Shown here in pieces: positions 23,806 to 39,350 of a DNA stretch of 46,101 nucleotides (positions are counted from its first letter, which is position 1; the number at the start of each line of letters is the position of its first letter). Under the pieces are notes generated by a model. The model searched no databases. It was not told the DNA's origin and saw only the letters and a program-made list of their open reading frames with translations. This DNA is from an uncultured Chloroflexales bacterium (lineage in GTDB: Bacteria > Chloroflexota > Chloroflexia > Chloroflexales > Chloroflexaceae): NCBI GenBank assembly GCA_937918935.1, contig CAKZSI010000082.1:1-46101 (forward strand). The letters are read 5' to 3'. The position numbers were made by a program, and so were the translations under genes.

Positions 23806-24858
23806 TCACTCGGCAGCGATACGGTCCGGCAACTGCCCATCCTCGCCAGCAGCGCTGTTGGGATTGGATATTGAGCCATTCAGGAGTTCGAGGCGCCGCT
23901 CACGAACCAGCGACGCCACAACCGATAGCGTAATGATCGCAGCCACGACGCCAAGAGAGATGCCGGTAGGAATGGCGAAACTGGCGCCCAGCAGGAGCCT
24001 GGTCGCATCGGGGAGCACCATCTTCACGCCCACGAAGGACAGCACCACCGCCAACCCCACCCGCAGGTAATGAAACTTGTGGACCACGCCCGCCAGCACA
24101 AAGTAGAGCGAGCGCAGACCGAGGATGGCGAAGACGTTTGAGGTGTAGATCAGAAACGGATCGCGGGTGACGGCGAAAATGGCGGGGATCGAGTCGAGCG
24201 CGAAGATCACATCGGTGGTCTCGACCATGATCAACACGAGCAGGAGCGGCGTGGCCATGCGCATCCCGTGTTGTACGGTGAAGAACTTCTGGCCGTCGTA
24301 GGTGGCGCTGACCGGCACGAAGCGGCGGAAGAGGTTCAGCACGGGGTTTTTCTCCGGCTCGATCTTCTCGTCGCCACCGGTAGCCATTTTGATGCCGGTG
24401 AAGACAAGAAAGCCGCCAAAGATCCAGATGACCCAGTGGAAGCGTTTGATCAGTTCGACGCCGGCGAAGATCATGCCAGCGCGCATCAGCAACGCGCCAA
24501 GGATGCCCCAGAAGAGGACGCGGTGCTGGTACCTGGCCGGCACGGCAAAGTACGAAAAGATCAGCACGAAGACAAATATGTTGTCAACGCTTAACGCTTT
24601 TTCAATCAAGTAGCCGGTGAGGAAGGCCAGGGCGGCATCGCCGGCGCCGTAGGCGCTGTCGGGAACAAGACGCTCCCAGAAGAGGAACAGCAGCAGATTG
24701 AAGAGCAGGGCGAGGCTGATCCAGACGACGCTCCAGATGGCTGCCTCTTTGAGCGCCACGACGTGGGCCTGCCGGTGGAACACGCCAAGATCAAGGGCCA
24801 GCATGGCCAGGACGAAGAGGTTAAACCCCACCCAGAGCCAGAACATGGTGTCGAACAC
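23806..24858 (-). CDS. TerC-family integral membrane protein
   Basis: A 350-residue protein with about nine hydrophobic segments. It shows family hallmarks: LDLGVFHR near the N-terminus, YLIEKALSVDNIFVFVLIFSY in TM3, and MVETTDVIFALDSIPAIFAVT with acidic residues buried in TM6. This is the Alx/TerC group; members have been linked to Mn2+ export and metallation of exported proteins. The C-terminal tail is polar. Start GTG 24858 has AGGGA about 9 bases upstream; ATG 24846 is an alternative. A cation antiporter with a Mn2+ riboswitch lies divergently across an 827-base gap, consistent with shared Mn2+/cation function. A 19-base palindrome lies just upstream. Confidence 0.92.
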   Translation of the reverse strand: MFDTMFWLWVGFNLFVLAMLALDLGVFHRQAHVVALKEAAIWSVVWISLALLFNLLLFLFWERLVPDSAYGAGDAALAFLTGYLIEKALSVDNIFVFVLIFSYFAVPARYQHRVLFWGILGALLMRAGMIFAGVELIKRFHWVIWIFGGFLVFTGIKMATGGDEKIEPEKNPVLNLFRRFVPVSATYDGQKFFTVQHGMRMATPLLLVLIMVETTDVIFALDSIPAIFAVTRDPFLIYTSNVFAILGLRSLYFVLAGVVHKFHYLRVGLAVVLSFVGVKMVLPDATRLLLGASFAIPTGISLGVVAAIITLSVVASLVRERRLELLNGSISNPNSAAGEDGQLPDRIAAE

Positions 24859-24882: not shown

Positions 24883-24901
24883 CGGATACCCGGGGTATCC
24901 G
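24883..24901. promoter_or_regulatory. Palindrome upstream of TerC gene
   Basis: Arms CGGATACCC and GGGTATCCG around a single central base, 25-43 bases before the TerC start. Its position suits an operator, but a small RNA hairpin is equally possible. Confidence 0.4.
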
Positions 24902-24908
24902 ATGACAT

Positions 24909-25180
24909 GCTGGGAGGGCTGCGCGCTCCCAGGTCTTCCTAATCAGGCAAGAAAGGAGTTTTCCTGAGAGGGCTGACCCCTCCCAGACTCTCCCGAAGAC
25001 AGTGTGGCAACCAGGTTTTTCCACGCCCCTGCCCAATGAGAGGGTCTGGGAGGGTTGCGTCCTCCCATTCTATCACGTACCCGAGATTCTACAGGCGAGC
25101 ATCCGGCGGTGAAAACGCCGAAGACCAGGATAAACATAAGGTCGCCTGGTAGGCTGCACCCTCCCGGAACCTCCCATCAC
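24909..25180. repeat. Array of stacked palindromic repeats
   Basis: Four type A copies (about 24910-24935, 24964-24995, 25040-25068, 25145-25177) and one degenerate type B copy (about 25006-25032) occupy most of this gap. They are diverged from each other and unevenly spaced, so this is repeated insertion rather than a tandem array. No gene is visible between 24859 and 25470. Confidence 0.6.
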
Positions 25181-25255
25181 AAGGAGCGTCGTGCGAATTC
25201 GCAGCACAGTGACAAGATTAGAGGTTCTCGAGCCAGCTCAGCTCAATGGTGGTGG

Positions 25256-25473: not shown

Positions 25474-25503
25474 TTGACAAATCCTGTGCAGCACAACTAT
25501 ACT
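25474..25503 (+). promoter_or_regulatory. Promoter of Mn2+ riboswitch transcript
   Basis: TTGACA, 18-base spacer, TATACT. Transcription would begin near 25510, directly before the aptamer. Confidence 0.8.
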
Positions 25504-25508
25504 ATCCC

Positions 25509-25615
25509 ACGGTAGGGGAGTAGCCGCTCGCGCCCCGCGAGGCGCCGCGTCGTCACTACGAGGCCCTGTCCTCCGGCGCGGTGAACGTGCATTAACCGTA
25601 CGTCCGGCAAGACCA
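25509..25615 (+). ncRNA. yybP-ykoY Mn2+ riboswitch
   Basis: The aptamer contains the near-invariant GGGGAGTAGC (25515-25524), the GTCGTCA block (25550-25556), a hairpin-forming middle part (CTCGC/GCGAG, GAGG/CCTC and CGGT/ACCG stems) and the closing CCGGCAAGACC (25604-25614), in the order known for this class. yybP-ykoY RNAs bind Mn2+ and switch on exporters. The 3' strand AAGACC also forms the left arm of the terminator that follows, which gives the expected mutually exclusive ON/OFF folds. Confidence 0.85.
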
Positions 25616-25645
25616 CCACGACCTGCAGCGCCGTGGTGGTCTTTC
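25609..25645 (+). terminator. Riboswitch-controlled intrinsic terminator
   Basis: A perfect 12-base stem AAGACCACCACG / CGTGGTGGTCTT, then TTCTATTG. It shares AAGACC with the aptamer, so Mn2+ binding should prevent its formation. Confidence 0.8.
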
Positions 25646-25685
25646 TATTGTGTCCACCACATCGAAGCACAGAGGAGGAAGCAGA

Positions 25686-26795
25686 GTGGATCTTGTGACG
25701 ATCGGGTTGATTCTGGGTGGATTGGCGCTGCTGACGATCGGGGGCGAATTGCTGGTGCGTGGCTCAGCGGCGCTGGCGGCGCTGGTCGGGGTCAGCCCGC
25801 TGGTGATCGGGTTGACGGTGGTCTCGTTCGGCACCAGCGCCCCGGAACTGGCGGTCAGTGTGCAGGCCGGTCTGGGCGGCAATCCTGACATCGCCATCGG
25901 CAACGTCATCGGCTCGAACATCTTCAATGTGCTCTTCGTGCTGGGGGCGTGTGCGCTGATCGCGCCACTGATCGTCTCGGTACAACTCGTGCGGCGCGAG
26001 GTGCCGATCATGATCGGCGTATGCTTTTTGATGGCTGGCATGGCCCTCAATGGCGGCGTTAGCCGGCTCGATGGAGCGCTGCTCTTCGGAACCCTGGTCG
26101 CATATACCGTCTGGTCGATCGTGAGCAGCCGGAGGGAGACCGAGGCGGCCAGACAGGAGTATGCCGGGGCCTTTGGCGCAGAGCAACTGGCACCGCAGCG
26201 CAGCATGGGGGCCATGATCAAGCAACTGGCTCTAGTCATCGGCGGATTGATCATTCTGGTGATCGGTTCGCGCTGGTTAGTGGCCGGCGCAGTCAATCTG
26301 GCGCGGGTGCTGGGGGTCAGTGATATTATCATCGGCCTGACCGTTGTGGCTGCCGGCACCTCGCTGCCCGAAGTGGTCGCCTCGCTGATTGCCACTCTGA
26401 AAAATGAGCGCGACATTGCCATCGGCAATGTGGTGGGCTCGAACGTTTTCAATGTCCTGGGCATTCTCGGCATTTCGGCCATGGTTATACCAGGAGGGTT
26501 GCCGGTAGCGGCCTCGGTGTTAAACTTCGATCTGCCAGTGATGCTGGCAGTGATGGTAGCGTGCCTGCCGGTGTTCTTTACGGGGATGAGCATCGCGCGC
26601 TGGGAAGGCGGCATGTTCCTGGCCTACTACGTGGCCTACACTGCCTACCTGGTGCTTAAAGCGACCCAACACGACGCCTTGCCGGCCTTCAGTAGCATCA
26701 TGGGCATGTTCGTGCTGCCGCTCACCGCCGTCACCCTGGGGGTGCTCGGACTCCATGCCTTCATCGCCAGCCGGCGGGGTGAACAACCCGCTTGA
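25686..26795 (+). CDS. CaCA-family cation antiporter under Mn2+ riboswitch
   Basis: A 369-residue protein of the calcium/cation antiporter superfamily (YrbG-like). It has the two inverted alpha-repeats that line the ion path: GTSAPELAVSV with IAIGNVIGSNIFNVL in the first half, and GTSLPEVVASL with IAIGNVVGSNVFNVLGILG in the second. About ten membrane helices are visible. GTG 25686 has a perfect GAGGAGGA site 6 bases upstream. Family members exchange Ca2+ for H+ or Na+, but the Mn2+ riboswitch in front indicates that Mn2+ is at least one physiological substrate here. TerC lies divergently. Confidence 0.93.
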   Translation: MDLVTIGLILGGLALLTIGGELLVRGSAALAALVGVSPLVIGLTVVSFGTSAPELAVSVQAGLGGNPDIAIGNVIGSNIFNVLFVLGACALIAPLIVSVQLVRREVPIMIGVCFLMAGMALNGGVSRLDGALLFGTLVAYTVWSIVSSRRETEAARQEYAGAFGAEQLAPQRSMGAMIKQLALVIGGLIILVIGSRWLVAGAVNLARVLGVSDIIIGLTVVAAGTSLPEVVASLIATLKNERDIAIGNVVGSNVFNVLGILGISAMVIPGGLPVAASVLNFDLPVMLAVMVACLPVFFTGMSIARWEGGMFLAYYVAYTAYLVLKATQHDALPAFSSIMGMFVLPLTAVTLGVLGLHAFIASRRGEQPA

Positions 26796-26818: not shown

Positions 26819-26848
26819 AGGGTCTGGGAGGAGCGTGCCCTCCCAGGA
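26819..26848. repeat. GGGAGGG palindrome, type A
   Basis: GGGTCTGGGAGG, AGCGTGC and CCTCCCAGG, 24 bases after the antiporter stop. Confidence 0.5.
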
Positions 26849-26900
26849 ACAGGCTCATGTTCACTGTGTAGTGAGAGTGTGCAGGGTATGGACAACCGAG

Positions 26901-26968: not shown

Positions 26969-27319
26969 CTAGGGTAGAATCACTAATTCACCTTGCTCGG
27001 TATGGCCCGGCACAGTACAAAACATCCGAAAGGTGCCGGCCTGGCGAGCAGGGAAAGCGAGGATGGCGTCAACTCCGGCCTCGGCGGACACGGTACGCCG
27101 ACCTGACGGCAAATCAATGGTGAGATTATGGGCAATCGTGTCGGCGTTGCGAAAGCGAATAAACACCTGCTCCCCCACCCGCGCCTCCAGACGGGGGGGA
27201 TCGTAACCGGCGGCAGTTACTGTCAACTCGAGTTGCCGTTCCCGAGGCATGGTTCCACACGCAACCAACCCCAGGAGGGCAAGGATCAGCAAGCAGGGGG
27301 GAGATACTTGTTTCCACAT
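26969..27319 (-). CDS. Cupredoxin lipoprotein with Glu at axial position
   Basis: A 116-residue exported blue-copper-like protein. Its signal peptide ends in the lipobox LVAC (C21). The beta-sandwich shows the copper ligands H64 (TIAHNLTI), C101 and H106 (MFCTVPGH). The usual axial methionine five residues after the last His is replaced by E111 (HTEQGEL). Cupredoxins carry single electrons outside the membrane; a Glu ligand is known from nitrosocyanin-type red copper sites, so the spectrum and potential may differ. It stands alone, divergent from the first Mrp operon. No other electron-transport gene is in the window. Confidence 0.88.
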   Translation of the reverse strand: MWKQVSPPCLLILALLGLVACGTMPRERQLELTVTAAGYDPPRLEARVGEQVFIRFRNADTIAHNLTIDLPSGRRTVSAEAGVDAILAFPARQAGTFRMFCTVPGHTEQGELVILP

Positions 27320-27476: not shown

Positions 27477-29918
27477 ATGCTGGTTTTGATTGTCCTGACG
27501 GCCCTGATCATGGCCCCGCTGGGTCTCTTCGCTCGCTACGAGCCGCGGCCAGTGATCGGCTGGGTGTTGGCGCTGGCGCCGCTGGCGCTGTTCGTGGTCA
27601 TCAGCGCGCTTGCTCCAGAAGTGCTGGCCGGGGGACGGCTGGAGCAGGTGATCCCCTGGGTACCTCGGATGGGCCTGGAGTTGCGGTTCGCGCTCGACGG
27701 CCTGAGCATGCTCTTTGCGCTGCTGGTGTCGGGCATCGGTACACTCGTCGTGCTCTACACCGCCTACTACCTGGCGGGCGATCCAGGGATGGGGCGCTTC
27801 TACCTGACGCTGTTCATCTTCATGGGCGCCATGCTCGGGCTGGTGCTGGCCGACAATGTGCTCACGATGTTCATGTTCTGGGAACTGACGTCGGTCAGTT
27901 CGTACCTGCTGGTGGGCTACAAGCACGATTACCCTTCGGCCCGGCGCGGCGCGCAGATGGGCCTGCTGATCACCGTTGGCGGCGGCCTGGCGCTGCTGGT
28001 TGGTCTGGTGCTGCTGGGCAATGTTGCCGGATCATACACGATCTCTGAGATTCTCGCAGCCGGGGAACAGATCAAGGCCTCACCATTCTACACGCCAGCG
28101 ATGCTGCTGATCTTCCTGGGGTGCTTTACCAAATCGGCCCAGTTCCCCTTCCACTTCTGGTTGCCCAACGCGATGCAGGCCCCCACGCCGGCCAGCGCCT
28201 ACCTGCACTCGGCCACCATGGTCAAGGCGGGGATCTACCTGCTGGCCCGGCTGCACCCTACGCTGAGCGACACGCCGCTGTGGCTCTACACGCTGACCGG
28301 CGTGGGGATGACCACGATGCTGATCGGGGCGGTAGTGGCGAACCGGCGCGACGACATCAAGGGCCTGCTGGCCTACAGCACTATCAGCAAGCTCGGTACG
28401 ATGGTGCTGCTGGCAGGTATGGGCGGCCCCGAGGCCCCCGCCGCGCTGGTGGCTACCATCCTGGCCCATGCCCTCTACAAAGGGGCCCTGTTCATGCTGG
28501 CCGGGGCGGTGGACCATGAGGCCGACACCCGCAGCTTGGCCCAGCTCGGCGGCTTGCGCCGGGCCATGCCCTGGACGGCAGCGCTGTCGATCCTGTCTTC
28601 GCTCTCAATGGCCGGCGTGCCCATTCTCTTCGGCTTCGTCGCCAAAGAGGAGCAACTGTACGCCGCGGTTGATAATGGCCTGCCTCCAGGGCTCGACATC
28701 GTCGTGCTGGTCGCGGTCGTCACCAGCGCGGTCTTCGGAGTGCTCTACTCATGGCGCCTGGTGAGCGGGGTGTTTTTCGGACCCCGCGGCAGCGGGATGA
28801 AGGAGCACGTCCACGAGGCGCCGGCGGGGATGCTAATTGGACCGGCGCTCCTGACCACCTTCTCGGTGGTGTTGCCACTCGGTCTACTTCCAGCCACCGC
28901 CACGCTGCTGCAGCCGGCGGTGAACGCGATCTCCAATGAGGGGGCGAAGATCAGCCTGTACCTGTTCCCCTCCGAAATCGGTCTCCCGCTGATCCTCAGC
29001 ATGACCGCGCTGCTGATCGGCGCCGTGCTGACGCGCTTTGAACCGCAGATCGTCGCCGCGCCCTCGCCGCTGCCACCCTGGCTCAACGGCGACCGCATCT
29101 ACGACGCGGCAGTTGATGGAGTGCTGCGAGGGGCAACGGCCTTTACCCGCACCCTGCAAAACGGCAGGTTGCGGAGCTATATGACCTGGTCCGTGCTCTC
29201 GCTGGTCGCCGTGGTCGCGCCACCGCTCTTGTTCTTCGGGTTCAACGGGCTGGCGCTGCCGACCCTCGACGGGGTGGAGCCGTTCGAGTTCGTCAGCATG
29301 CTGCTTATTCCCATCGGCGTCATCGCGACCCTGCAAGCACGCACGCGACTCGGTGCGATCATTGCTGCGAGTTTTGTCGGGTTGATGGTAGCCTATATTT
29401 TCGTCATTTACAGCGCGCCCGACCTGGCCCTGACCCAGTTGCTGGTGGAGATTTTGACGACGGTCTTCCTGGTACTACTCTTCGCCGTAATGCCGGCGAG
29501 CTTCGAGCCGCTGACAGCCCCTGCGGAACGGTCGCGCGACGGGCTGATCGCTGTGATCGGCGGGCTGGTGTTCGCCGGGATCGCCTTCGCCGCTTCGAGC
29601 AGCACGGAGTTGTCCCCTATCAGCCAGGCGTTTCGCGCTGAAAGCCAGAGCCAGGGCTTTGGCGACAATGTAGTCAACGTCATCCTGGTAGACTTCCGCG
29701 GCTTCGACACCATGGGCGAGATTGTGGTGCTGTTCATCGCCCTGATGGGCATCTATGCCATGCTGCGCCTGCGGCCGGGCGCCGGCCTGGCGCGCGATGA
29801 CGCAGAGACGCCAGCGCAGCCCGCAAGCCCTGAGGCGCCCGCGCCGCAGGGAAATGGCCAGCCTGGCCGACCGACCCCGAAGGAGCAAGAGGCCCCGGTG
29901 GCGGGCAAGGGTCGTTAG
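27477..29918 (+). CDS. mrpA: Mrp Na+/H+ antiporter subunit A, operon 1
   Basis: The largest subunit of the multi-gene Mrp (Mnh/Sha) cation/proton antiporter, 813 residues, related to complex I NuoL. Residues about 75-480 form the Proton_antipo_M domain. It includes the key glutamate E136 in FWELTSVSSYLLVGYKHDYP (equivalent to the essential TM5 Glu) and the QFPFHFWLPNAMQAPTPASAYLHSATMVKAG helix region (cited in part). The C-terminal third carries the Mrp-specific segments IYSAPDLALTQLLVEI and NVILVDFRGFDTMGEI. Length and layout equal Bacillus MrpA. It heads an operon with mrpB, C, D, F and G but no mrpE. It is closely similar to the mrpA at 33494 over its whole length, so the two operons arose by duplication. 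Confidence 0.95.
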   Translation: MLVLIVLTALIMAPLGLFARYEPRPVIGWVLALAPLALFVVISALAPEVLAGGRLEQVIPWVPRMGLELRFALDGLSMLFALLVSGIGTLVVLYTAYYLAGDPGMGRFYLTLFIFMGAMLGLVLADNVLTMFMFWELTSVSSYLLVGYKHDYPSARRGAQMGLLITVGGGLALLVGLVLLGNVAGSYTISEILAAGEQIKASPFYTPAMLLIFLGCFTKSAQFPFHFWLPNAMQAPTPASAYLHSATMVKAGIYLLARLHPTLSDTPLWLYTLTGVGMTTMLIGAVVANRRDDIKGLLAYSTISKLGTMVLLAGMGGPEAPAALVATILAHALYKGALFMLAGAVDHEADTRSLAQLGGLRRAMPWTAALSILSSLSMAGVPILFGFVAKEEQLYAAVDNGLPPGLDIVVLVAVVTSAVFGVLYSWRLVSGVFFGPRGSGMKEHVHEAPAGMLIGPALLTTFSVVLPLGLLPATATLLQPAVNAISNEGAKISLYLFPSEIGLPLILSMTALLIGAVLTRFEPQIVAAPSPLPPWLNGDRIYDAAVDGVLRGATAFTRTLQNGRLRSYMTWSVLSLVAVVAPPLLFFGFNGLALPTLDGVEPFEFVSMLLIPIGVIATLQARTRLGAIIAASFVGLMVAYIFVIYSAPDLALTQLLVEILTTVFLVLLFAVMPASFEPLTAPAERSRDGLIAVIGGLVFAGIAFAASSSTELSPISQAFRAESQSQGFGDNVVNVILVDFRGFDTMGEIVVLFIALMGIYAMLRLRPGAGLARDDAETPAQPASPEAPAPQGNGQPGRPTPKEQEAPVAGKGR

Positions 29919-30114
29919 ACGTGTCTCGGGGACGGGCAGCGCGGCCCGCCAGTTGCTTCCTGGCCGCATGTGCTTGCTGTGGAGGTGTGGAGTGACTGAC
30001 CCTGAACCACGGTTTTATGCTGTTTCGGATTGTGGATTGCCATGTACGGCATCTCAATGAAATCTGACGACGCCCATACACTGAATGGGAATTGGTATTC
30101 GAGGAGACCAGACC
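29919..30114. other. mrpA1-mrpB1 gap with GGATTG-like repeats
   Basis: A 196-base gap with no gene. It includes TTTCGGATTGTGGATTGCCA (about 30022-30041), a heptamer-like run that recurs in other gaps of the two Mrp operons. Confidence 0.5.
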
Positions 30115-30585
30115 ATGTACGACTCGATCATTCTACGCAACGTATCGCGGCTGATGTTTCCCATCCTGCTGTTGCTGTCGTTGTTTATGCTGGTGCGCGG
30201 GCACAACCTGCCAGGCGGGGGCTTTATCGGCGGTCTGGTGGCGGCATCAGCGTTCATTCTGCAGATTATCGCCGCCGGGCCGACGTATGTCCGAACTTCT
30301 TTTCAGATCAACTTCCTCAACCTGGCGGCGTTTGGCGTGATCTTCGCGGCACTATGGGGGCTGCCGGGCCTGGTTACGGGCGAGGCGTACATGCTGGCCT
30401 TCTGGCTCAAAGAACCGATCCCGGGGATCGGGAAACTCGGCACGCCGGTGTTGTTTGATATTGGCGTCTATCTGACGGTGATCGGGGTAACGACGCAACT
30501 GGCACTGGTGCTCGCCGAAGAGCCGACGCTCTACCCGATCCAGCGCCCTCCGGCACGACCGAACGCGACCGCTCCCGAAGTGTAG
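30115..30585 (+). CDS. mrpB: Mrp antiporter subunit B, operon 1
   Basis: A 156-residue membrane subunit with four helices, required for assembly of the Mrp complex. Family marks are LFMLVRGHNLPGGGFIGGLV near the N-terminus and IPGIGKLGTPVLFDIGVYLTV in the second half. ATG 30115 is chosen because GAGGAG lies about 11 bases upstream and the product starts like the mrpB of operon 2 (MY-S-ILR); an in-frame ATG at 30085 would add ten unrelated residues. The gap to mrpA1 is 196 bases, against only 7 bases in operon 2. Confidence 0.94.
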   Translation: MYDSIILRNVSRLMFPILLLLSLFMLVRGHNLPGGGFIGGLVAASAFILQIIAAGPTYVRTSFQINFLNLAAFGVIFAALWGLPGLVTGEAYMLAFWLKEPIPGIGKLGTPVLFDIGVYLTVIGVTTQLALVLAEEPTLYPIQRPPARPNATAPEV

Positions 30586-30687
30586 GAACGATGTTCGATT
30601 GCGGATTTAGGATTGCGGCGCGCGGCCTCTCAGCAAACTCCAGCAATGCCGCATCTGCGGTCCATTCAACAGGTACAGGTATAAGCG

Positions 30688-31041
30688 ATGAATCTGATTC
30701 TTTCCCTGGTTGTCGGGACGCTATTCGCCGGGGGCATCTACCTGGTGCTGCGCCGCAGCGTGGTCAAGCTGATGCTGGGCCTGGTGCTGCTCAGCCATGG
30801 CGCGCACCTGCTCATCTTCCTGATGGGCGACGGCCTGATCAAGGCGCGCACGCCCTTCGTCAGGGCGGAGACTGGCGTGGCCCCTCCGGACTCCGCCGAT
30901 CCGCTCATACAGGCCTTGATCCTGACAGCGATTGTGATCAGTCTCGGCCTGCTCACCTTCGTCATGGCGCTGGCCTACCGCACCGACCAGGCCGTCGGGA
31001 GCGATGACCTCAACGCGATGACTTCGACTGACCAGTTGTAG
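30688..31041 (+). CDS. mrpC: Mrp antiporter subunit C, operon 1
   Basis: A 117-residue, three-helix subunit homologous to complex I NuoK. It shows GTLFAGGIYLVLRRSVVKLMLG, LLSHGAHLLIF and the C-terminal helix [19 protein letters not shown] (cited in part). It is followed by mrpD after 9 bases, so the two are co-translated. It is nearly the same length as, and very similar to, the copy at 36582. Confidence 0.94.
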   Translation: MNLILSLVVGTLFAGGIYLVLRRSVVKLMLGLVLLSHGAHLLIFLMGDGLIKARTPFVRAETGVAPPDSADPLIQALILTAIVISLGLLTFVMALAYRTDQAVGSDDLNAMTSTDQL

Positions 31042-31050
31042 GGAAGACCA

Positions 31051-32571
31051 ATGGCACATCACTTGTTTCTCCCCCTGATCGTCCCGCTTTTCAGCGCCGG
31101 TGTGGCAACACTCATCAGCCAGCGGCTCGCCTGGGCGCGGGTGATCGCCGTGGCCGCGACGCTCTTCAACCTGGGGTACGGCACGTGGCTGCTGGTAACT
31201 GTCGCCACGACGGGCCGGCAAGTGACGCAGGGCGGGGGTTGGGTTGCGCCCTTTGGCATCACGCTCATGGCCGACGGTCTGAGCGCCATCATGCTTTTTC
31301 TTACCGCCCTGCTGACCCTGGTGACCATCTTGTTCAGCTTCGCCACAATTGACGCGCGGCAGGAGCGTTTTTACTACTACCCGCTGCTGCTGCTGCTGAT
31401 GTTCGGCTGCAGCGGGGCCTTCCTGACCGGCGATCTCTTCAACCTCTACGTCTGGTTCGAGATCCTGCTGGTGGCCTCCTTCGGGTTGATCACCCTCGGC
31501 GGCTCGCGGGCGCAACTCGAGGGCGGGCTGAAGTACGTCGTGTTGAACCTGTTCGCGAGCCTCTGCTTTCTGGTCGGCGCGGGCCTGGTCTACGGGGTGG
31601 CGGGCACACTCAACATGGCCCATCTGGCCGAGCGGCTGAACGCGATTCAGGAACCGACCCTGGTGACGGCGGTGGCCGGTTTCTTCCTGATCGCCTTTGG
31701 CGGCAAGGCCGCCCTGGCGCCATTGTTTTTCTGGCTGCCCACCAGTTACCACACCCCGAGCATCGCCGTCACTGCGCTGTTTGGCGGCTTGCTCTCCAAG
31801 GTGGGGATCTACGCCCTGTACCGGGTGTTCGGCACAGTCTTCCAGAGCGAGTTAGGGCGGCTGGCGCCGCTCATCCTGGCGGTTGCCGGCGTGACTATGG
31901 TGGTGGGGGTGATCGGGGCGATGGCCCAGGTCAACGTGCGGCGCATCCTTGCCTTTCACATCGTCAGCCAGGTGGGCTACATGGCTATGGGGCTGGGCCT
32001 GGCCAGCGTGGCCGGGCTGACGGCGGGCATTCTGTTTATGGCCCACAACATCGTGGTGAAGACGGCCCTGTTCCTGATCGGCGGGGCGGCGGAGCACCTC
32101 ACCGGCAGCGGCGAGTTGAAGCAGATGGGCGGTATGGCCCGGCGCGAACCCTTCCTGGCGGTGCTCTGGCTGCTGGCCAGCTTCGCGCTGGTGGGCATTC
32201 CACCCCTGAGCGGCTTCTTCGGCAAGCTCGGGCTGATCCAGGCCGGGGTGGCCCAGGAGCAGTGGCTGATCGTCGGCGTGGCGGCGGGGGTCAGTCTCTT
32301 CACCCTCTTCTCGATGCTGAAGATCTGGAACGAGGTGTTCTGGAAGAAGGCCTACGGCGATATGAGCCGCCTGCCCCGCGCCGGGGCGGGGCTGCTGGCG
32401 CCCGCGGTGATCCTGGTCGCGGTGAGCATCGCGCTGGGCCTCGGCGCGGCCCCGGCTCTGGAGTACAGCGTCCTGGCGGCAGAGCAGACGCTTGACACCG
32501 TGGGCCTGGCGCGCGATGTCTGCGGCGCCGGTGGCTGTGATGCGGTTGAACTGGCAGTGGCCCGTGAGTGA
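31051..32571 (+). CDS. mrpD: Mrp antiporter subunit D, operon 1
   Basis: A 506-residue proton-pumping-like subunit related to NuoM/NuoN, with 14 membrane helices. The essential TM5 glutamate is E137 in LYVWFEILLVASFGLITLGG, and the FWLPTSYHTPSIAVTALFGG and HIVSQVGYMAMGLGL segments hold the conserved lysine and histidine pathway. It is followed by a 103-base gap with a type B repeat and then mrpF; in operon 2 mrpE sits at this place. Confidence 0.95.
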   Translation: MAHHLFLPLIVPLFSAGVATLISQRLAWARVIAVAATLFNLGYGTWLLVTVATTGRQVTQGGGWVAPFGITLMADGLSAIMLFLTALLTLVTILFSFATIDARQERFYYYPLLLLLMFGCSGAFLTGDLFNLYVWFEILLVASFGLITLGGSRAQLEGGLKYVVLNLFASLCFLVGAGLVYGVAGTLNMAHLAERLNAIQEPTLVTAVAGFFLIAFGGKAALAPLFFWLPTSYHTPSIAVTALFGGLLSKVGIYALYRVFGTVFQSELGRLAPLILAVAGVTMVVGVIGAMAQVNVRRILAFHIVSQVGYMAMGLGLASVAGLTAGILFMAHNIVVKTALFLIGGAAEHLTGSGELKQMGGMARREPFLAVLWLLASFALVGIPPLSGFFGKLGLIQAGVAQEQWLIVGVAAGVSLFTLFSMLKIWNEVFWKKAYGDMSRLPRAGAGLLAPAVILVAVSIALGLGAAPALEYSVLAAEQTLDTVGLARDVCGAGGCDAVELAVARE

Positions 32572-32608
32572 TTTTGGATTGGGGATTGGGCGAGGGTCTC
32601 CCGCCGGG

Positions 32609-32644
32609 CAGGGGTGTGGGAAAACCAGGTTTCCCCATACCCCT
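32609..32644. repeat. Type B palindrome in place of mrpE
   Basis: CAGGGGTGTGGGAAAACC and GGTTTCCCCATACCCCTTG form a long imperfect hairpin in the gap between mrpD1 and mrpF1. Confidence 0.65.
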
Positions 32645-32674
32645 TGTGTGCAGATCAGAAATGGAGCGAGTGCC

Positions 32675-32944
32675 ATGAGCGCATTTCAGATAGGGATGAC
32701 CATCCTGATGCTGGTGGTGAGCGTTTCGTTGGGAGCCTCGGTGTGGCGACTGCTGCGGGGGCCGAGCATTCCCGACCGGGCGGTTGCCTTTGACTTGATC
32801 GTGGTCCACGTGGTGGGGCTGATTACGATGTTCGTGGTCACCACTGGCGAACTGGTGCTCCTCGACACGTTGATCGTCATCTCGGTGCTGGGTTTCCTGG
32901 GCACGGTGGCCATCGCCCGCCTGATTGAAGTGGGGAGGAACTGA
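32675..32944 (+). CDS. mrpF: Mrp antiporter subunit F, operon 1
   Basis: An 89-residue, three-helix subunit with WRLLRGPSIPDRAVAFDLIV and the C-terminal ISVLGFLGTVAIARLIEVG typical of MrpF/MnhF. ATG 32675 aligns with the start of the operon 2 copy, and GGAG is about 10 bases upstream. Its stop codon overlaps the ATG of mrpG by one base (TGATG). Confidence 0.93.
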   Translation: MSAFQIGMTILMLVVSVSLGASVWRLLRGPSIPDRAVAFDLIVVHVVGLITMFVVTTGELVLLDTLIVISVLGFLGTVAIARLIEVGRN

Positions 32945-33300
32945 TGACGCCGTTAGAAATCGTCACCCTGGCGATCACCCTGGTGGGGGTCTTCTTCGTA
33001 GTGGTTTCGTCGGTCGGACTGGTACGGCTGCCGGACCTCTACACGCGGGTCCATGCGGGGGGCAAATCGGGCACGCTGGGCATCATCGGGGTGCTGCTGG
33101 GCGCGGGGGTCTTCTTCATCACCGACCTGCGGATCGTCACCAAGATGTTCATTCTGATCGCCTTCTTCTTCCTCACCGGCCCCGTGGCGGCGCACATGCT
33201 CGACCGGGCGGCCCTGCTGAGCGGAGTAAAGCCCATGGAAGGCACGTACCCGAACGATCTTGAGGGACGTTACGATCCCGAGACACGCCGGCTGAGTTAG
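32944..33300 (+). CDS. mrpG: Mrp antiporter subunit G, operon 1
   Basis: A 118-residue, three-helix subunit with GVFFVVVSSVGLVRLPDLYTRVHAGGKSGTLGI (shown in part: VRLPDLYTRVHAGGKSGT), the MrpG/PhaG signature. It is the last gene of the first operon. The next operon begins after a 193-base gap that has its own promoter. Confidence 0.94.
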   Translation: MTPLEIVTLAITLVGVFFVVVSSVGLVRLPDLYTRVHAGGKSGTLGIIGVLLGAGVFFITDLRIVTKMFILIAFFFLTGPVAAHMLDRAALLSGVKPMEGTYPNDLEGRYDPETRRLS

Positions 33301-33362: not shown

Positions 33363-33420
33363 GCGTGAGGGAGGGTGGCATCCCAACAACGGTTCTACAC
33401 GGGAACTGGCGCGGCCATAT

Positions 33421-33449
33421 TTGCTTCCGCGAAACGTTGCGGTTACAAT
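33421..33449 (+). promoter_or_regulatory. Promoter of second Mrp operon
   Basis: TTGCTT, 17-base spacer, TACAAT, about 45 bases upstream of mrpA2. The two operons can therefore be expressed separately. Confidence 0.6.
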
Positions 33450-33493
33450 ACAGCGCAGCCCTGTGGCCCGAAATACGTATTGCAAGAGGTACG

Positions 33494-35974
33494 ATGCTAA
33501 CCGCGATCGTTCTGAGCATGCTGGCCCTGGCGCCAATTGGCCTGCTCGCCCGGCATTTGCCCCGTCCCCTGATCGGCTGGGTGCTGGCCCTGCTGCCACT
33601 GGCAGCCTTCGCCGGCTTTGCCGCCCGCGCCCCGCTGGTCCTCGAGGGGGGCGTCTTGATTGAGACATTGCCGTGGGTGCCGGAGATGGGCCTGAGCGTG
33701 CGCTTTAGCCTCGACGGGTTGAGCCTGCTCTTCGCCCTGCTGGTCAGCGGGATCGGGACGCTGATTTTTCTCTACACCGCCTACTATCTGGCCGACGATC
33801 CGGGCATGGGGCGCTTTTATGTCTACCTGGCGATCTTCATGGGCGCGATGCTGGGGCTGGTGCTGGCCGATAATGTGCTCCTGCTGTTCATCTTCTGGGA
33901 GCTGACCTCGGTAAGCTCGTACCTGCTGGTCGGCTACAAGCACGACTACCCCGAGGCGCGGCGGGGCGCGCAGATGGGTCTGCTGATCACCGTCGGCGGG
34001 GGCCTGGCGCTGCTGGTGGGCCTGGTGCTGTTGAGCAACGCCGCCGGGTCGTTCGAGATCTCGGAGATCATCGGCGCAGGCGAGGAACTGCGCGCTTCGC
34101 CGTTCTACACCCCGGCGCTGCTGCTGATCTTCCTGGGCTGCTTCACCAAGTCGGCTCAGTTCCCTTTCCACATCTGGTTGCCCAACGCGATGCAGGCCCC
34201 CACGCCGGCCAGCGCCTACCTGCACTCGGCCACCATGGTCAAGGCGGGGGTCTACCTGCTGGCCCGGCTGCACCCGGCGCTGAACGAGACGCCCCTGTGG
34301 ATCTACACGCTCACGGCGGTGGGCGGAACCACCATGCTCATCGGGGCGGCAATCGCCCTGCGGAAAGATGATATCAAGGGGTTGCTGGCCTACAGCACGG
34401 TGAGTATGCTCGGCGCCATGGTGCTGATGGCCGGCATTGGTGGCCACGATGCCCCCCTGGCCCTGGTGACGCTGATCCTGGCCCACGCCCTCTACAAAGG
34501 GGCGCTGTTTATGCTGGCCGGGGCGGTGGACCACGAGGCCGGCACGCGCAAGCTCAGTGAACTGGGCGGTCTGGGCCGGGAGATGCCGCGTACCCTTGTG
34601 TTGACGAGCCTGGCGGCCCTCTCCGCCGCGGGTATCCCGCCGCTGTTTGGCTTCGTGGCCAAGGAGGAGTTGCTGCACGCAACGACCCACAGCAACCTGG
34701 CGCCAGGAGTGGAAATGCTGGTGGTGGGTGTGACGGTGGTGGCGGCAGTGCTTGGCATTCTCTATGCCTGGCGCCTGGTGAGCGGGATCTTCTTCGGCCC
34801 GGCGGCGCCCCGAAAGAAGGCCCATGTCCACGACGCCCCTATCGGCATGCTGGTCGCACCGGGGGTGCTGACGCTGCTCTCGGTGATCCTGCCTCTGGGC
34901 CTGTTGCCCATGGTCTCGGCGTTGTTCCAGCCAGCGGTTATGGCCATCGCAGGCGAGCCTGGAGAGGTCAGCCTGCACCTGATGCCCTCGGCGCTGAGCC
35001 TGCCGGTGGTGCTGAGCGTGGTGGCCATCGGCAGCGGCGCCGCCCTGACACGCTTCGTGAAGCAGATCAGCGCGGCGCCCTCGCCGCTTCCGGCCTGGCT
35101 CAACGGCGACCGGATCTACGACGCGGCCATCAGCGGGTTGCTGAACGGAACCACCGCCTTCACCCGGGCGGTGCAGAATGGCCGGCTGCGGAACTACATC
35201 CGCTACTCGTTGCTGGCCCTCCTGGCGGTCATCCTCACCCCGCTGGCGCTGTTCGCCCCTGGCAACGCGCCAGTGCCCGATCTGTCCAATATTACCCTGC
35301 CGGAGATCGTAACGGCCCTGCTCGTGCCCCTGGCGATCCTGGGGACCATTCGCGCCCGCTCGCGGCTGGGGGCAATCATCGTGACCGGGGTCGTGGGGGC
35401 GATGGTCTCGTTCATGTTCGTGATCTACAGCGGCCCCGACCTGGCGCTGACCCAACTCCTGGTCGAGGTGATCTCGACGGTCTTCTTTCTGCTGGTGTTC
35501 GCGGTGCTGCCGGCCTCGTTCCAGCGCCTGTCGTCTGCCGCTACGCGGGCGCGCGACGCAGTGATCGCCCTGGGCATCGGCGCGACGATGGCGGCGTTCA
35601 CCTGGATCGCGGCGAGCAGCAAGTTGTTTCCACCGATCAGCGCCGTGTTCAAAGCCGAGGCCCTGGCGGAGGGTAAGGGCGAGAATGTGGTCAATGTGAT
35701 CCTGGTGGACTTCCGCGGCTTTGATACCATGGGTGAGATTACGGTGCTCTTCATCGCCCTGCTGGGAACCTACGCCATGCTGCGTCTGCGTCCCGAAGCC
35801 GATCCCACGATTGCCAAGATGCGTGGCAAGACCGAGCCAGACGCAGGCTTCCTCGGACGGCGGGGGCGCCGCGAAATGGGCATTGGTAGCCGAGACGGGC
35901 ACGAGAACGGCCAGGACGGGGCAGGCGCGCCGGCGCCGGTGGGGCAGCCGGGGGGTAGCCAGGAAGAGGGGTGA
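33494..35974 (+). CDS. mrpA: Mrp Na+/H+ antiporter subunit A, operon 2
   Basis: An 826-residue paralogue of the mrpA at 27477. The TM5 glutamate (LFIFWELTSVSSYLLVGYK), the AQFPFHIWLPNAMQAPT segment and the Mrp-specific C-terminal IYSGPDLALTQLLVEV and NVILVDFRGFDTMGEI are all intact. The last 45 residues form a polar Gly/Arg-rich tail that differs from operon 1, so the copies diverge most at the cytoplasmic end. ATG 33494 has AGAGGT directly upstream; the open frame to 33365 runs through the promoter. mrpB2 follows after 7 bases. Confidence 0.95.
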   Translation: MLTAIVLSMLALAPIGLLARHLPRPLIGWVLALLPLAAFAGFAARAPLVLEGGVLIETLPWVPEMGLSVRFSLDGLSLLFALLVSGIGTLIFLYTAYYLADDPGMGRFYVYLAIFMGAMLGLVLADNVLLLFIFWELTSVSSYLLVGYKHDYPEARRGAQMGLLITVGGGLALLVGLVLLSNAAGSFEISEIIGAGEELRASPFYTPALLLIFLGCFTKSAQFPFHIWLPNAMQAPTPASAYLHSATMVKAGVYLLARLHPALNETPLWIYTLTAVGGTTMLIGAAIALRKDDIKGLLAYSTVSMLGAMVLMAGIGGHDAPLALVTLILAHALYKGALFMLAGAVDHEAGTRKLSELGGLGREMPRTLVLTSLAALSAAGIPPLFGFVAKEELLHATTHSNLAPGVEMLVVGVTVVAAVLGILYAWRLVSGIFFGPAAPRKKAHVHDAPIGMLVAPGVLTLLSVILPLGLLPMVSALFQPAVMAIAGEPGEVSLHLMPSALSLPVVLSVVAIGSGAALTRFVKQISAAPSPLPAWLNGDRIYDAAISGLLNGTTAFTRAVQNGRLRNYIRYSLLALLAVILTPLALFAPGNAPVPDLSNITLPEIVTALLVPLAILGTIRARSRLGAIIVTGVVGAMVSFMFVIYSGPDLALTQLLVEVISTVFFLLVFAVLPASFQRLSSAATRARDAVIALGIGATMAAFTWIAASSKLFPPISAVFKAEALAEGKGENVVNVILVDFRGFDTMGEITVLFIALLGTYAMLRLRPEADPTIAKMRGKTEPDAGFLGRRGRREMGIGSRDGHENGQDGAGAPAPVGQPGGSQEEG

Positions 35975-35981
35975 GGGGTTC

Positions 35982-36455
35982 ATGTACGAGTCAATGATTC
36001 TCCGCACGATCGCCCGGTTGATGTTACCGCTCCTGTTGCTGCTTTCACTGTTCATGGTGGTGCGGGGGCACCATCTGCCCGGCGGGGGCTTCGTGGGCGG
36101 GTTGCTGGCCTCGGCGGCGATCATTCTGCAGATTGTCGCCTTTGGCCCCGACTACGCGCGCGAGATCATTCCGGTCAACTACCTGCGCGTGGCGGCGACC
36201 GGGGTCGGTTTCGCCGCGTGCTGGGGGCTGCTGGCCCTGGTCCAGGGCCAGCCGTTCATGGCTGCCCGCTGGCTGGATACGCCGATCCCGGGCATTGGCA
36301 AGCTCGGCACGCCGGTGATGTTCGATATCGGCGTTTACCTGACGGTGATCGGCGTAACGACGCAACTGGCCCTGGTGCTCGCCGAAGAGCCGACACTCTA
36401 CCCGCTGCGGCGCTCTCCCCCTCCCCAGACGGAACCAATGGCGCCGGAGGCGTAG
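35982..36455 (+). CDS. mrpB: Mrp antiporter subunit B, operon 2
   Basis: 157 residues. FMVVRGHHLPGGGFVGGLLA and TPIPGIGKLGTPVMFDIGVY match the family and the operon 1 copy. ATG 35982 is coupled to mrpA2 with a ribosome site (GAGGGGTGAGGGG) spanning its stop. The C-terminal tail is Pro-rich. The 126-base gap to mrpC contains a GGATT-type heptamer run (about 36461-36481). Confidence 0.94.
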   Translation: MYESMILRTIARLMLPLLLLLSLFMVVRGHHLPGGGFVGGLLASAAIILQIVAFGPDYAREIIPVNYLRVAATGVGFAACWGLLALVQGQPFMAARWLDTPIPGIGKLGTPVMFDIGVYLTVIGVTTQLALVLAEEPTLYPLRRSPPPQTEPMAPEA

Positions 36456-36581
36456 CAGGATTTCGGATTCTGGATTGCCGCATATGGCGTCCCAGACAGT
36501 GCTCACCCGCTTCCCCGCCGAAGATGGGAGAGCCGGTGAGCACCCGAAGGACCGGTTTTCATCATCAGGAGTGACAGGCCT

Positions 36582-36935
36582 ATGACCTTCATCCTCTCCC
36601 TGGTGGTCGGCACACTGTTCGCGGGGGCCGCGTATCTGATGCTGCGCCGGAGCCTGGTCAAACTGATCCTGGGCCTGGTGCTGCTCAGCCACGGCACGAA
36701 CCTGCTGCTCTTCCTGATGGGTGACGGCGTGGTCAAGGGCATGCCGCCCTTCGTGGACGAGGCCACCGGCGTCACCCCGACAGTGGCCGCCGACCCGCTG
36801 AACCAGGCGCTGATCCTGACCGCGATCGTGATCAACTTCGGCTTCACCGCCTTTATCCTCTCCCTGGCCTACCGGACGAACCAGGCGGTGAACAGTGACG
36901 ACCTCGATGATATGGTCGAGACCGACCGGCTGTAG
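36582..36935 (+). CDS. mrpC: Mrp antiporter subunit C, operon 2
   Basis: 117 residues, NuoK-like, three helices: [31 protein letters not shown] and [20 protein letters not shown]. It sits 9 bases before mrpD, exactly as in operon 1. Confidence 0.94.
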
Positions 36936-36944
36936 AATGCGCAT

Positions 36945-38465
36945 ATGGCAAACCACCTCTTTTTCCCCCTGCTCGTCCCGCTGCTCAGCGCAGTCCTGGC
37001 AACCCTGGTAGGCCAGCGACGGGTGATCGCCCGCTCAATTGCGTTGGCGGCCGTGCTCTTCGACCTGGGCTACAGCATCTGGCTGCTGTTCGCGGTAGGA
37101 GCAACAGGGCGCATGGTGACCCAGGCGGACGATTTCGCTGCGCCGTTCGGCATCTCGCTGGTGGCAGACGGGTTGAGCGCAATTATGCTCACGCTCACCT
37201 CGATCATGATGCTGGTGACCGTGCTCTACAGCTTCAGCACCGTCAGCCCCTACCGCGAACGTTACTACTACTACCCGCTGCTGCTCCTGCTCTTGTTCGG
37301 CTGCGGCGGGGCCTTTCTCACCGGCGACCTGTTCAATCTCTACGTCTGGTTCGAGGTGCTGCTGGTGGCCTCGTTCGGGCTGATCACCCTGGGCGGCGAG
37401 CGCGGCCAGTTGGAGGGGGGCCTGAAGTACGTGGTGCTGAACCTCATGGGCAGCACCAGCTTCCTGATCGGCGCAGGGTTGCTCTACGGAGTGGCGGGCA
37501 CGCTGAACATGGCCCACCTGGCCGAGCGCCTGGGCACCCTGCAACAACCCGGCATCGTGACGGCAGTGGCCGGCTTCTTTCTCTTCGCCTATAGCAGCAA
37601 GGCAGGGCTGGTGCCGGTCTTCTTCTGGCTGCCAACAAGCTACCACACCCCGACAGTCGCGGTGAGCGCCCTCTTTAGCGGCCTGCTCACCAAGGTGGGG
37701 ATCTACGCCCTCTACCGGGTCTTCGGCACGGTGTTCCAGCGGGAACTGGAGCGTTACGGCACGCTCATCCTGGTGATCGCGGCGTTGACAATGGTAATCG
37801 GGGTGATGGGCGCAATGGCCCAGGTGAACGTGCGGCGTATTCTGTCGTTTCACATTATCAGCCAGGTGGGCTACATGATCATGGGGCTGGGGCTGGTGGG
37901 GGTGGCGGGCCTGGCAGCCGGCATCCTGTATATGGTTCACCACATCGTGGTGAAAACGGCCCTGTTTATGATCGGCGGCACGGCGGAGTACCTGGCGGGC
38001 ACCGGCGAACTGAAGCAGATGGGCGGCATGGCCCGGCGCGAGCCGATCCTGGCCGGTCTCTGGCTCCTGGCCAGTTTCTCGCTGGCCGGGCTTCCGCCGC
38101 TGAGCGGCTTCTTTGGCAAACTCGGCCTGATCCAGGTTGGTCTGGACCAGGGCCAGTGGCTGATGGTGGGCGTCGCCGCGGTGGTCAGCCTCTTTACGCT
38201 CTTCTCGATGTTGAAGATCTGGAACGAGGTGTTCTGGAAAAGGGCCAATGTTGATCAGACGGCTATGCCACGGGCCTCGGCCCTGCTGATCGCGCCGAGC
38301 GCGCTGCTGGTGGCCCTGAGCATCGCCATTGGCTTTGGGGCCAGCCCCGTGTTGCGGTACAGCCGCTACTCGGCTGAGCAGGTCTTCAATACGCAGAGCC
38401 TGGTCCAGGATGTCTGTGGCCCCGCTGGCTGCGATGCAGTTACCTCGACGGCAAATAATCAGTGA
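36945..38465 (+). CDS. mrpD: Mrp antiporter subunit D, operon 2
   Basis: 506 residues, the same length as the operon 1 copy, with the essential TM5 glutamate in LYVWFEVLLVASFGLITLGG and conserved FWLPTSYHTPTVAVSALFSG. The C-terminal end (CGPAGCDAV) carries the same two-cysteine tail as its paralogue. A 112-base gap with a GGATTTTGGATTGC-like run precedes mrpE. Confidence 0.95.
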   Translation: MANHLFFPLLVPLLSAVLATLVGQRRVIARSIALAAVLFDLGYSIWLLFAVGATGRMVTQADDFAAPFGISLVADGLSAIMLTLTSIMMLVTVLYSFSTVSPYRERYYYYPLLLLLLFGCGGAFLTGDLFNLYVWFEVLLVASFGLITLGGERGQLEGGLKYVVLNLMGSTSFLIGAGLLYGVAGTLNMAHLAERLGTLQQPGIVTAVAGFFLFAYSSKAGLVPVFFWLPTSYHTPTVAVSALFSGLLTKVGIYALYRVFGTVFQRELERYGTLILVIAALTMVIGVMGAMAQVNVRRILSFHIISQVGYMIMGLGLVGVAGLAAGILYMVHHIVVKTALFMIGGTAEYLAGTGELKQMGGMARREPILAGLWLLASFSLAGLPPLSGFFGKLGLIQVGLDQGQWLMVGVAAVVSLFTLFSMLKIWNEVFWKRANVDQTAMPRASALLIAPSALLVALSIAIGFGASPVLRYSRYSAEQVFNTQSLVQDVCGPAGCDAVTSTANNQ

Positions 38466-38577
38466 ATAAGAGCCTCCGATATGACCGCCGAGGATGCAGA
38501 GGGCAACGGATTTTGGATTGCTGTGCGCGGGTGTTCACCAGGAACACGACGGTTCGAGGACGACTGAAGGAGCGTTT

Positions 38578-39084
38578 ATGCTGGGGTTAAATCTGCTGCT
38601 GGCACTGGCCTGGGTAATGGTCAACGGCTCGTACCACCTGGCCGACTGGATCGTCGGGTTCATCTTCAGCTTCCTGGTGCTGCGGCTGGCGTGGCCGACC
38701 TTCTCGAATGAGCCGTTCAGCTTCCGGGCCTACTTCCGCTTCTGGTCGCCCAATCCGCTCCGGGCACTGTGGCGCTGGCTGGGCTTTATTGGCTACGGCT
38801 TCGTCGAGATTGTGAAAGCGAACATCACTGTGGCACGCACGGTGCTCTCACCGAAGATGGACCTGCAACCGGGGATCGTGGCCATTCCGCTGGATCTCAA
38901 GAGCGACGAGGGGATCACTACCCTGGCGAACCTGATCACCCTCACCCCGGGTACGGTCAGCCTGGACGTGTCGAGCGATCGCAAGACGTTGTACATTCAC
39001 GCCTTTGACGCCCGCGATCCCGAGGGATTGCGCCAGGCAACGAAGGAAGCCTACGAGCGCCGCGTGATGGAGTTGCTGCCATGA
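38578..39084 (+). CDS. mrpE: Mrp antiporter subunit E
   Basis: 168 residues with two N-terminal membrane helices and a cytoplasmic C-terminal domain; the family marks ANITVARTVLSPKMDLQPGI and LANLITLTPGTVSLD are present. MrpE is needed for full activity of the seven-subunit Mrp complex in Bacillus. ATG 38578 has GAAGGAG 5 bases upstream. Its stop overlaps the mrpF start (ATGA). This is the only mrpE in the window; operon 1 has none. Confidence 0.95.
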   Translation: MLGLNLLLALAWVMVNGSYHLADWIVGFIFSFLVLRLAWPTFSNEPFSFRAYFRFWSPNPLRALWRWLGFIGYGFVEIVKANITVARTVLSPKMDLQPGIVAIPLDLKSDEGITTLANLITLTPGTVSLDVSSDRKTLYIHAFDARDPEGLRQATKEAYERRVMELLP

Positions 39085-39350
39085 GCCCGTTCCAACTGAC
39101 GATGACCATTCTGATGGCCCTGCTCAGCCTGTCGCTGGCGGTCACCTTCTGGCGTCTGGTGCGCGGGCCAAGCATTCCCGATCGGGCGGTGGCCTTCGAT
39201 ATGATTATGACCCACCTGGTCGGGCTGATCGCGATGTTCGTGGTGCAGTTCCGTCAGCCGATCCTCATCGACGCCGTGATCGTGGTCTCGGTGCTGGGCT
39301 TCCTGGGCACAGTGGCCCTGGCCCGCTACATCGAGGAGGGGAGGAACTGA
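39081..39350 (+). CDS. mrpF: Mrp antiporter subunit F, operon 2
   Basis: 89 residues, same length and pattern as the copy at 32675: RLVRGPSIPDRAVAFDMIM and VSVLGFLGTVALARYIEEG. It overlaps mrpE by 4 bases and mrpG by 1 base. Confidence 0.94.
   Translation: MSPFQLTMTILMALLSLSLAVTFWRLVRGPSIPDRAVAFDMIMTHLVGLIAMFVVQFRQPILIDAVIVVSVLGFLGTVALARYIEEGRN

Follow-up and report, generated by a model that had tools for sequence, protein, structure and literature searches.

In Bordetella pertussis, the gene BP3410, a member of the CaCA superfamily annotated as a calcium:cation antiporter, lies behind a yybP-ykoY riboswitch. That study reports that manganese induction is lost when the aptamer is mutated, that the riboswitch acts by premature transcription stop, that calcium leaves expression unchanged (data not shown there), and that cells without functional BP3410 hold ~5x more manganese, with export followed by ICP-MS (inductively coupled plasma mass spectrometry; PMC8546581). 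For the yybP-ykoY element of Lactococcus lactis, two papers describe how Mn2+ stabilises helix P1.1 against the terminator (PMC11087558), and how the ion is recognised through five phosphoryl oxygens and through N7 of A41, the invariable adenosine of L3 (UCA41AUUC; PMC6754395). UPF0016/MneA proteins are likewise presented as Mn exporters under a yybP-ykoY riboswitch (PMC7380456). Here we characterise a yybP-ykoY element in front of a CaCA antiporter gene in the window, that is, the whole stretch of 46,101 nucleotides analysed, from a bacterium assigned by inference to the family Chloroflexaceae.

With a probability of roughly 0.8, we read this locus as a Mn2+-activated transcriptional yybP-ykoY riboswitch that controls a CaCA antiporter most likely exporting Mn2+, and perhaps Ca2+ too. 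Without Mn2+, the RNA 3' of the aptamer would fold into a terminator that uses the 3' strand of P1, and transcription would stop before the gene. Mn2+ would bind between L1 and L3, dock the two legs and keep P1 closed; with P1 closed, the polymerase would read into the antiporter gene. The features on which this reading draws are as follows.

25474-25649, + strand: regulatory leader, with promoter, aptamer and terminator in that order, upstream of the CaCA gene
25474..25503, + strand: sigma-70-type promoter, TTGACA-N18-TATACT, 11/12 consensus matches, TGTGCA inside the spacer
25507..25620, + strand: yybP-ykoY Mn2+ aptamer (RF00080 match, own model R1, covariation)
25609..25649, + strand: intrinsic terminator, 12-bp perfect stem, 11-nt loop and T-rich tail (read by eye; minimum free energy (MFE) fold)
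25671..25679, + strand: ribosome-binding site AGAGGAGGA (by eye)
25686..26795, + strand: CaCA-superfamily cation antiporter, TIGR00367, 369 aa (TIGR00367 and Pfam matches)

The leader, its aptamer and its terminator

The motifs of the aptamer can be read directly: GGGGAGTAGC at 25515-25524, GTCGTCA at 25549-25555 and GGCAAGACC at 25606-25614. Loops L1 (GGGGAGUAG, 25515-25523) and L3 (CGUCA, 25551-25555) are both present, and the Mn-discriminating L3 adenosine is found as A25555, assigned by motif position. The Rfam model RF00080 scored 37.2 bits against 261 bases (E 6.7e-9) and 35 bits against the whole 4.60-Mb genome (E 1.2e-7), where this was the sole match up to E 10. A model built from aptamers of the family (R1) gave the window aptamer 96.0 bits, a value that is partly circular, as the window sequence is in the model; two more R1 matches elsewhere in the window, of 14.7 and 9.8 bits, were taken as chance. 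Beyond the family, R1 found 30/31 riboswitch loci of the Polaromonas family at 19-42.9 bits, and its silence on relatives elsewhere is meaningful for this reason.

The secondary structure was mapped by hand as follows.

25511-25516/25613-25617, + strand: P1, GGU-A-GG/CCACC, drawn with a bulged A
within the aptamer, + strand: L1, GGGGAGUAGC
25527-25541, + strand: P2
25543-25549/25577-25583, + strand: P3a, CGCCGCG/CGCGGUG
within the aptamer, + strand: L3, UCGUCACUAC/CGG, including A25555
25560-25563/25570-25573, + strand: P3b, GAGG/CCUC
25585-25590/25598-25603, + strand: P4, ACGUGC/GUACGU

We then assessed these helices in 35 distinct family aptamers, collected by a pattern that required the L1, L3 and GCRAGACC motifs and left the stems unconstrained; invariance at the required motifs is therefore by construction. 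Across the 35 aptamers, 81.6 % of cells were base-paired, and the covariation score was 0.487 against 0.192 +/- 0.012 in shuffled alignments (0/500 as high), while slid partners reached at most 0.119, a comparison in which mapping on the window's own sequence favours the drawn structure over slid versions. Cells changed on both sides of a pair numbered 174 (shuffled mean 63.6), with two-sided change in 7/7 P3a and 4/4 P3b pairs. The proportion of paired cells was 93.4 % in P3a, 97.8 % in P3b and 85.1 % in the hardly varying P1, and only 70 and 63 % in the poorly aligned P2 and P4, respectively. The four-way junction P1-P2-P3-P4 is thus kept by compensatory change.

Downstream, the terminator arms AAGACCACCACG (25609-25620) and CGTGGTGGTCTT (25632-25643) form a stem without mismatches (-19.6 kcal/mol), behind which a T-rich tail extends to 25649. 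A terminator pattern scan, which allowed loops of 3-8, does not list the hairpin at 25609-25649 because its loop is 11 nt long. Since the 5' arm includes the 3' strand of P1 (25613-25617), P1 and the terminator are mutually exclusive: the MFE fold of the full leader (-64.6 kcal/mol) forms the terminator, and that of the leader cut before the terminator 3' arm forms P1. The expression platform competes with P1. By a crude terminator rule, capture of the P1 3' strand was seen in 16/17 CaCA units of the family (window included), 14/26 other units and 1/16 TerC/Alx units. Mn2+ as the ligand, Mn2+ induction and ON logic would follow from the riboswitch class, to which we assign them because the architecture and the L3 adenosine match the L. 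lactis mechanism.

The promoter is separated from the aptamer by a few bases, and we infer that the transcript begins near the 5' strand of P1. The spacer motif TGTGCA (10/17 CaCA, 0/16 Alx and 2/26 other units, with one of 60 elements omitted at a contig end) was considered as a Mn-specific operator or second control site and dropped, the element being common before unrelated genes. A longer form, TTGACAAAGCCTGTGCA, which in the window spans 25474-25490 at the -35 box, occurred with <=2 mismatches at 121 sites in 39/41 family genomes (12 for the reversed control), 120 of them outside the window. Among 30 sites viewed, some preceded riboswitches and many preceded genes without a visible Mn link, which points to an element of the family's promoters at large rather than a Mn box; Rfam at gathering score gave no match in 20/30 of these viewed loci.

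These results bear out what the original prediction had described for the leader, namely a full promoter (near-consensus), a yybP-ykoY aptamer and a perfect terminator overlapping it; the covariance-model search that it named as a check returned the aptamer as the only match in the genome, yet below the gathering score of the model.

The antiporter and the spread of the switch

The likely start of the antiporter gene is the GTG at 25686, behind AGAGGAGGA; an earlier GTG, at 25650, is the first in the open frame. Its product scored 269.9 bits against TIGR00367 (cut-off 179.65) and 5.7e-64 against Pfam Na_Ca_ex, so that the Ca2+ antiporter annotation, as predicted, stands above a curated cut-off. 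The closest solved structure by sequence is NCX_Mj, and alignment to it places two alpha-repeats with ligand residues T50 S51 E54 S77 N81 and T225 S226 E229 S252 N256, at positions that we take to be ion ligands in NCX_Mj; all match that protein except D240, which is N256 here. We compared these positions with family sequences and with 80 outside relatives (45-63 % identity, from many phyla), kept from named genomes among the matches listed, where very near records may be missing. Each ligand position was identical in at least 55/57 family sequences and 79/80 outside relatives, an invariance that is partly by construction, as the patterns selecting the relatives overlap some of these positions. 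A tRNA called by ARAGORN inside the gene was taken as chance. Judged by these sequence matches, the RNA is a yybP-ykoY riboswitch and the protein a TIGR00367 member.

Across the 41 genomes of the family set, R1 (E <= 0.01) found 60 elements in 31 genomes. The gene behind them was CaCA in 17 cases, TerC/Alx in 16 and another in 27, the last group including some for which interrupted or unclear reading frames downstream left no gene to name, and one at the end of a G019 contig. CaCA and Alx form a divergent pair in 13 genomes, the window included; the switch is on both genes in four, on CaCA only in two (the window and its sister G026) and on Alx only in seven, which belong to one genus. The three relatives from the window's genus that own the CaCA gene scored 95.8-100.3 bits with R1, and G027, the fifth genome of this genus, has the Alx gene, no CaCA match and no aptamer. 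G024 has both switches, but its Alx-side element has degenerated (44.9 bits).

The window itself has kept the switch on CaCA and seems to have lost the Alx-side one. Two divergent features bear on this:

23806..24858, - strand: TerC/Alx-family metal homeostasis membrane protein (TIGR03718, 422.9 bits)
25067..25107, - strand: possible remnant of the terminator of a lost Alx-side riboswitch, by likeness to the G025 Alx unit, with no aptamer left

A second aptamer for this Alx gene was not found; in this region the best score besides the CaCA element was 4.5 bits. When the segment 25067-25107 was compared with terminator regions of other Alx units, the intact unit of G025 gave a score of 32 (1/300 shuffles as high), that of G024 a weak likeness (17/300), and those of G017 and G031 none (218 and 283 of 300 shuffles as high); the segment is possibly a vestige of an Alx-side unit, as the likeness to G025 would suggest.

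On a tree of CaCA proteins, the switch label required eight changes, at least four of them forced by starred branches. A single origin of the switch on CaCA was dropped in view of this count, and gains, losses and gene conversion are indistinguishable on the tree, which was built by a quick method (LG+G4), has some long branches, includes 12/80 outside relatives, and omits L048 (broken frames of G021) and some partial CaCA matches. At that locus (G021:C533), two tandem CaCA genes carry one aptamer each, their frames interrupted by TAG codons.

Other targets were also recorded in the family. Canonical aptamers (73.4-92.4 bits) at L067 (G029:C537), L062 (G029:C333), L066 (G030:C133) and L058 (G028:C604) precede three site-2 proteases of family M50 (CBS domain in two), two Spo0M-family genes and, at a distance of 260 nt, a MrpA-like antiporter subunit. 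P-type cation ATPases look like frequent targets (L051, L052, L053, L055, L056, L068, L069, L070, L015, L016 and L067), as called by Pfam for L051 and L052 and judged from N-termini for the others. A weaker aptamer, L061 (G031:C89:3795-3894, 61.5 bits), lies 455 nt before a frame with an ABC-transporter permease domain and a PstC-like look.

UPF0016 was above its cut-off in 0/41 family genomes, with one match below it. In the Polaromonas family, 91 riboswitch matches were found in 86/150 genomes, and all 31 inspected loci (L215-L245) had a UPF0016-type gene, called by motif, beside the aptamer (CaCA 0/31); Polaromonas (L102) and Ideonella (L095) do possess a CaCA homologue, without a switch. 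Given 0/41 here against 31/31 there, the place of UPF0016 seems to be filled in Chloroflexaceae by CaCA, TerC and P-type ATPases (MntP was not searched for).

In the rest of the window, two sets of Mrp-type cation/proton antiporter genes follow one another downstream of CaCA (27477-33300 and 33365-39350, + strand), with a cupredoxin-like gene (26969-27319, - strand) between CaCA and the first set. Several imperfect GGGAGGG...CCCTCCC palindromic repeats occupy intergenic positions around Alx and CaCA (24900-25200 and 26820-26850).

Weighing Mn2+ export against other readings

Several results weigh against a Mn2+-responsive switch in control of a Mn2+ exporter. At the level of the RNA, nothing in the window reaches 45 bits, the gathering score of RF00080; pairs with two-sided change (20) are no more numerous than expected by chance (shuffled mean 17.9, 66/500 as high); the stability of the leader is not unusual (z -2.0 whole, -0.7 cut); and, when drawn without ligand or tertiary contacts, the OFF fold (-48.7 kcal/mol) lies 15.7 kcal/mol below the ON fold (-33.0 kcal/mol), so that a large contribution is required from Mn2+ and from timing. 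At the level of the protein and its relatives, there is no Mn signature at the NCX ligand positions; as the residues are the same with or without the switch, the protein sequence is silent on Mn2+ versus Ca2+. In seven family genomes, a switched Alx adjoins a CaCA gene without a switch. Among the matches listed, only one of the 80 outside relatives has an R1 match (E <= 0.05) and 79 have none, although four have <200 bases upstream and could not show a switch. Elsewhere in the class, 22 CaCA matches were sampled in 18 genomes outside the family, and none of them has an aptamer beside it by contig and coordinates, a few of the 22 being near contig ends (G144 has only 68 bases upstream).

The single switched relative is a Chloroflexaceae genome, and its CaCA protein has the same sequence as the G029 one; the family name given to the window's group comes from this identity. 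Rfam Manganese at gathering score gave no match in the 80 relatives (among the matches listed), a weak test because it missed the L081 aptamer too. The class-level search with R1 found matches in 77/140 genomes. The link between switch and CaCA thus appears, from these searches, to be local to the family.

The sub-threshold Rfam score could mean that the aptamer has decayed or been re-tuned and is deaf to Mn2+, and the Alx-side aptamer does seem to be decaying in the same genus (degenerate in G024, none in the window). We consider this very improbable: all helices and loops are intact in the window, the three genus relatives with the CaCA gene score uniformly high with R1, and the differences in P3 between the window and its relatives are compensatory. 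The family has 19 RF00080 matches in 15/41 genomes, all below 45 bits (0/41 reach it), and only 2/14 control genomes reach it, even though E. coli, B. subtilis and L. lactis are all among the matching controls. We take the shortfall as a sign of a strict threshold and not of a doubtful element; the gathering score is a limit set in curation and no property of the RNA itself. The modest fold z-scores would also suit an ordinary attenuator or chance hairpins, a possibility that the genome-wide E of 1.2e-7 and the covariation had already made very unlikely and that becomes negligible with 60 elements in 31/41 genomes of the family, 33 of these elements preceding CaCA or TerC/Alx.

The most serious alternative, which we nevertheless regard as unlikely, is that the riboswitch senses Mn2+ while the antiporter mainly moves Ca2+ (or both ions), adjusting the Ca2+ or divalent balance at high Mn2+. 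TIGR00367 is a calcium/sodium antiporter family, the protein shares all but one of its ligand residues with NCX_Mj, and its relatives in many phyla have no switch; yet TerC/Alx adjoins CaCA, and UPF0016 is above cut-off nowhere in the family. On balance, we favour the view that the antiporter is probably a Mn2+ exporter. That it moves Mn2+ is plausible from its regulation and the one Bordetella precedent (PMC8546581). Of the original prediction as a whole, the riboswitch class, the ON architecture and the target gene stand, Mn2+ induction may be expected by analogy with the class, and Mn2+ transport, the weaker of these two proposals, is plausible.

A wider scenario, to which we give about even odds, is that the switch was rewired within Chloroflexaceae: a YrbG/NCX-type CaCA protein, of a kind that is hardly ever switched in other lineages, would have been recruited as a Mn2+ exporter replacing the absent UPF0016 and paired back to back with TerC/Alx, with the switch on one, the other or both, and the switch would have spread to P-type ATPases, site-2 proteases, Spo0M and a Mrp subunit. 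In the window, the Alx copy would have eroded and the CaCA copy been kept.

Comparison with known systems

A search of the literature by title and abstract, with subscription papers mostly outside it, found no paper on this locus. A 2013 comparative study covered yybP-ykoY sites and has five Chloroflexi genomes among its groups (PMC3766115). A Mn2+ riboswitch before a CaCA antiporter is already in print for Bordetella; the new part is the local family pattern. The locus adds a Chloroflexaceae genome to those in which a protein annotated for Ca2+ antiport probably exports Mn2+, and caution is warranted with Ca2+ annotations in the TIGR00367 family. The patchy switches on CaCA and TerC also provide natural pairs, related antiporters with and without a switch, for the question of CaCA specificity for Mn2+.

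Like BP3410, the window has a Mn riboswitch with a terminator before a CaCA-superfamily gene. It differs in belonging to another phylum, and the likeness described here is one of regulation and annotation. The window shares with the L. lactis yybP-ykoY element L1, L3 with its discriminator adenosine, the four-way junction and the competition between P1 and the terminator; it departs from that element in its target gene, in a P1 drawn with a bulged A and in an RNA that probably starts near P1. UPF0016/MneA proteins are also controlled by the switch, but belong to a different protein family from the window antiporter. TerC/Alx under yybP-ykoY, the arrangement named in TIGR03718 ('R_switched_Alx'), is seen at 16 sites in the family, each with an aptamer for the Alx gene itself, whereas none is detectable on the Alx gene of the window.
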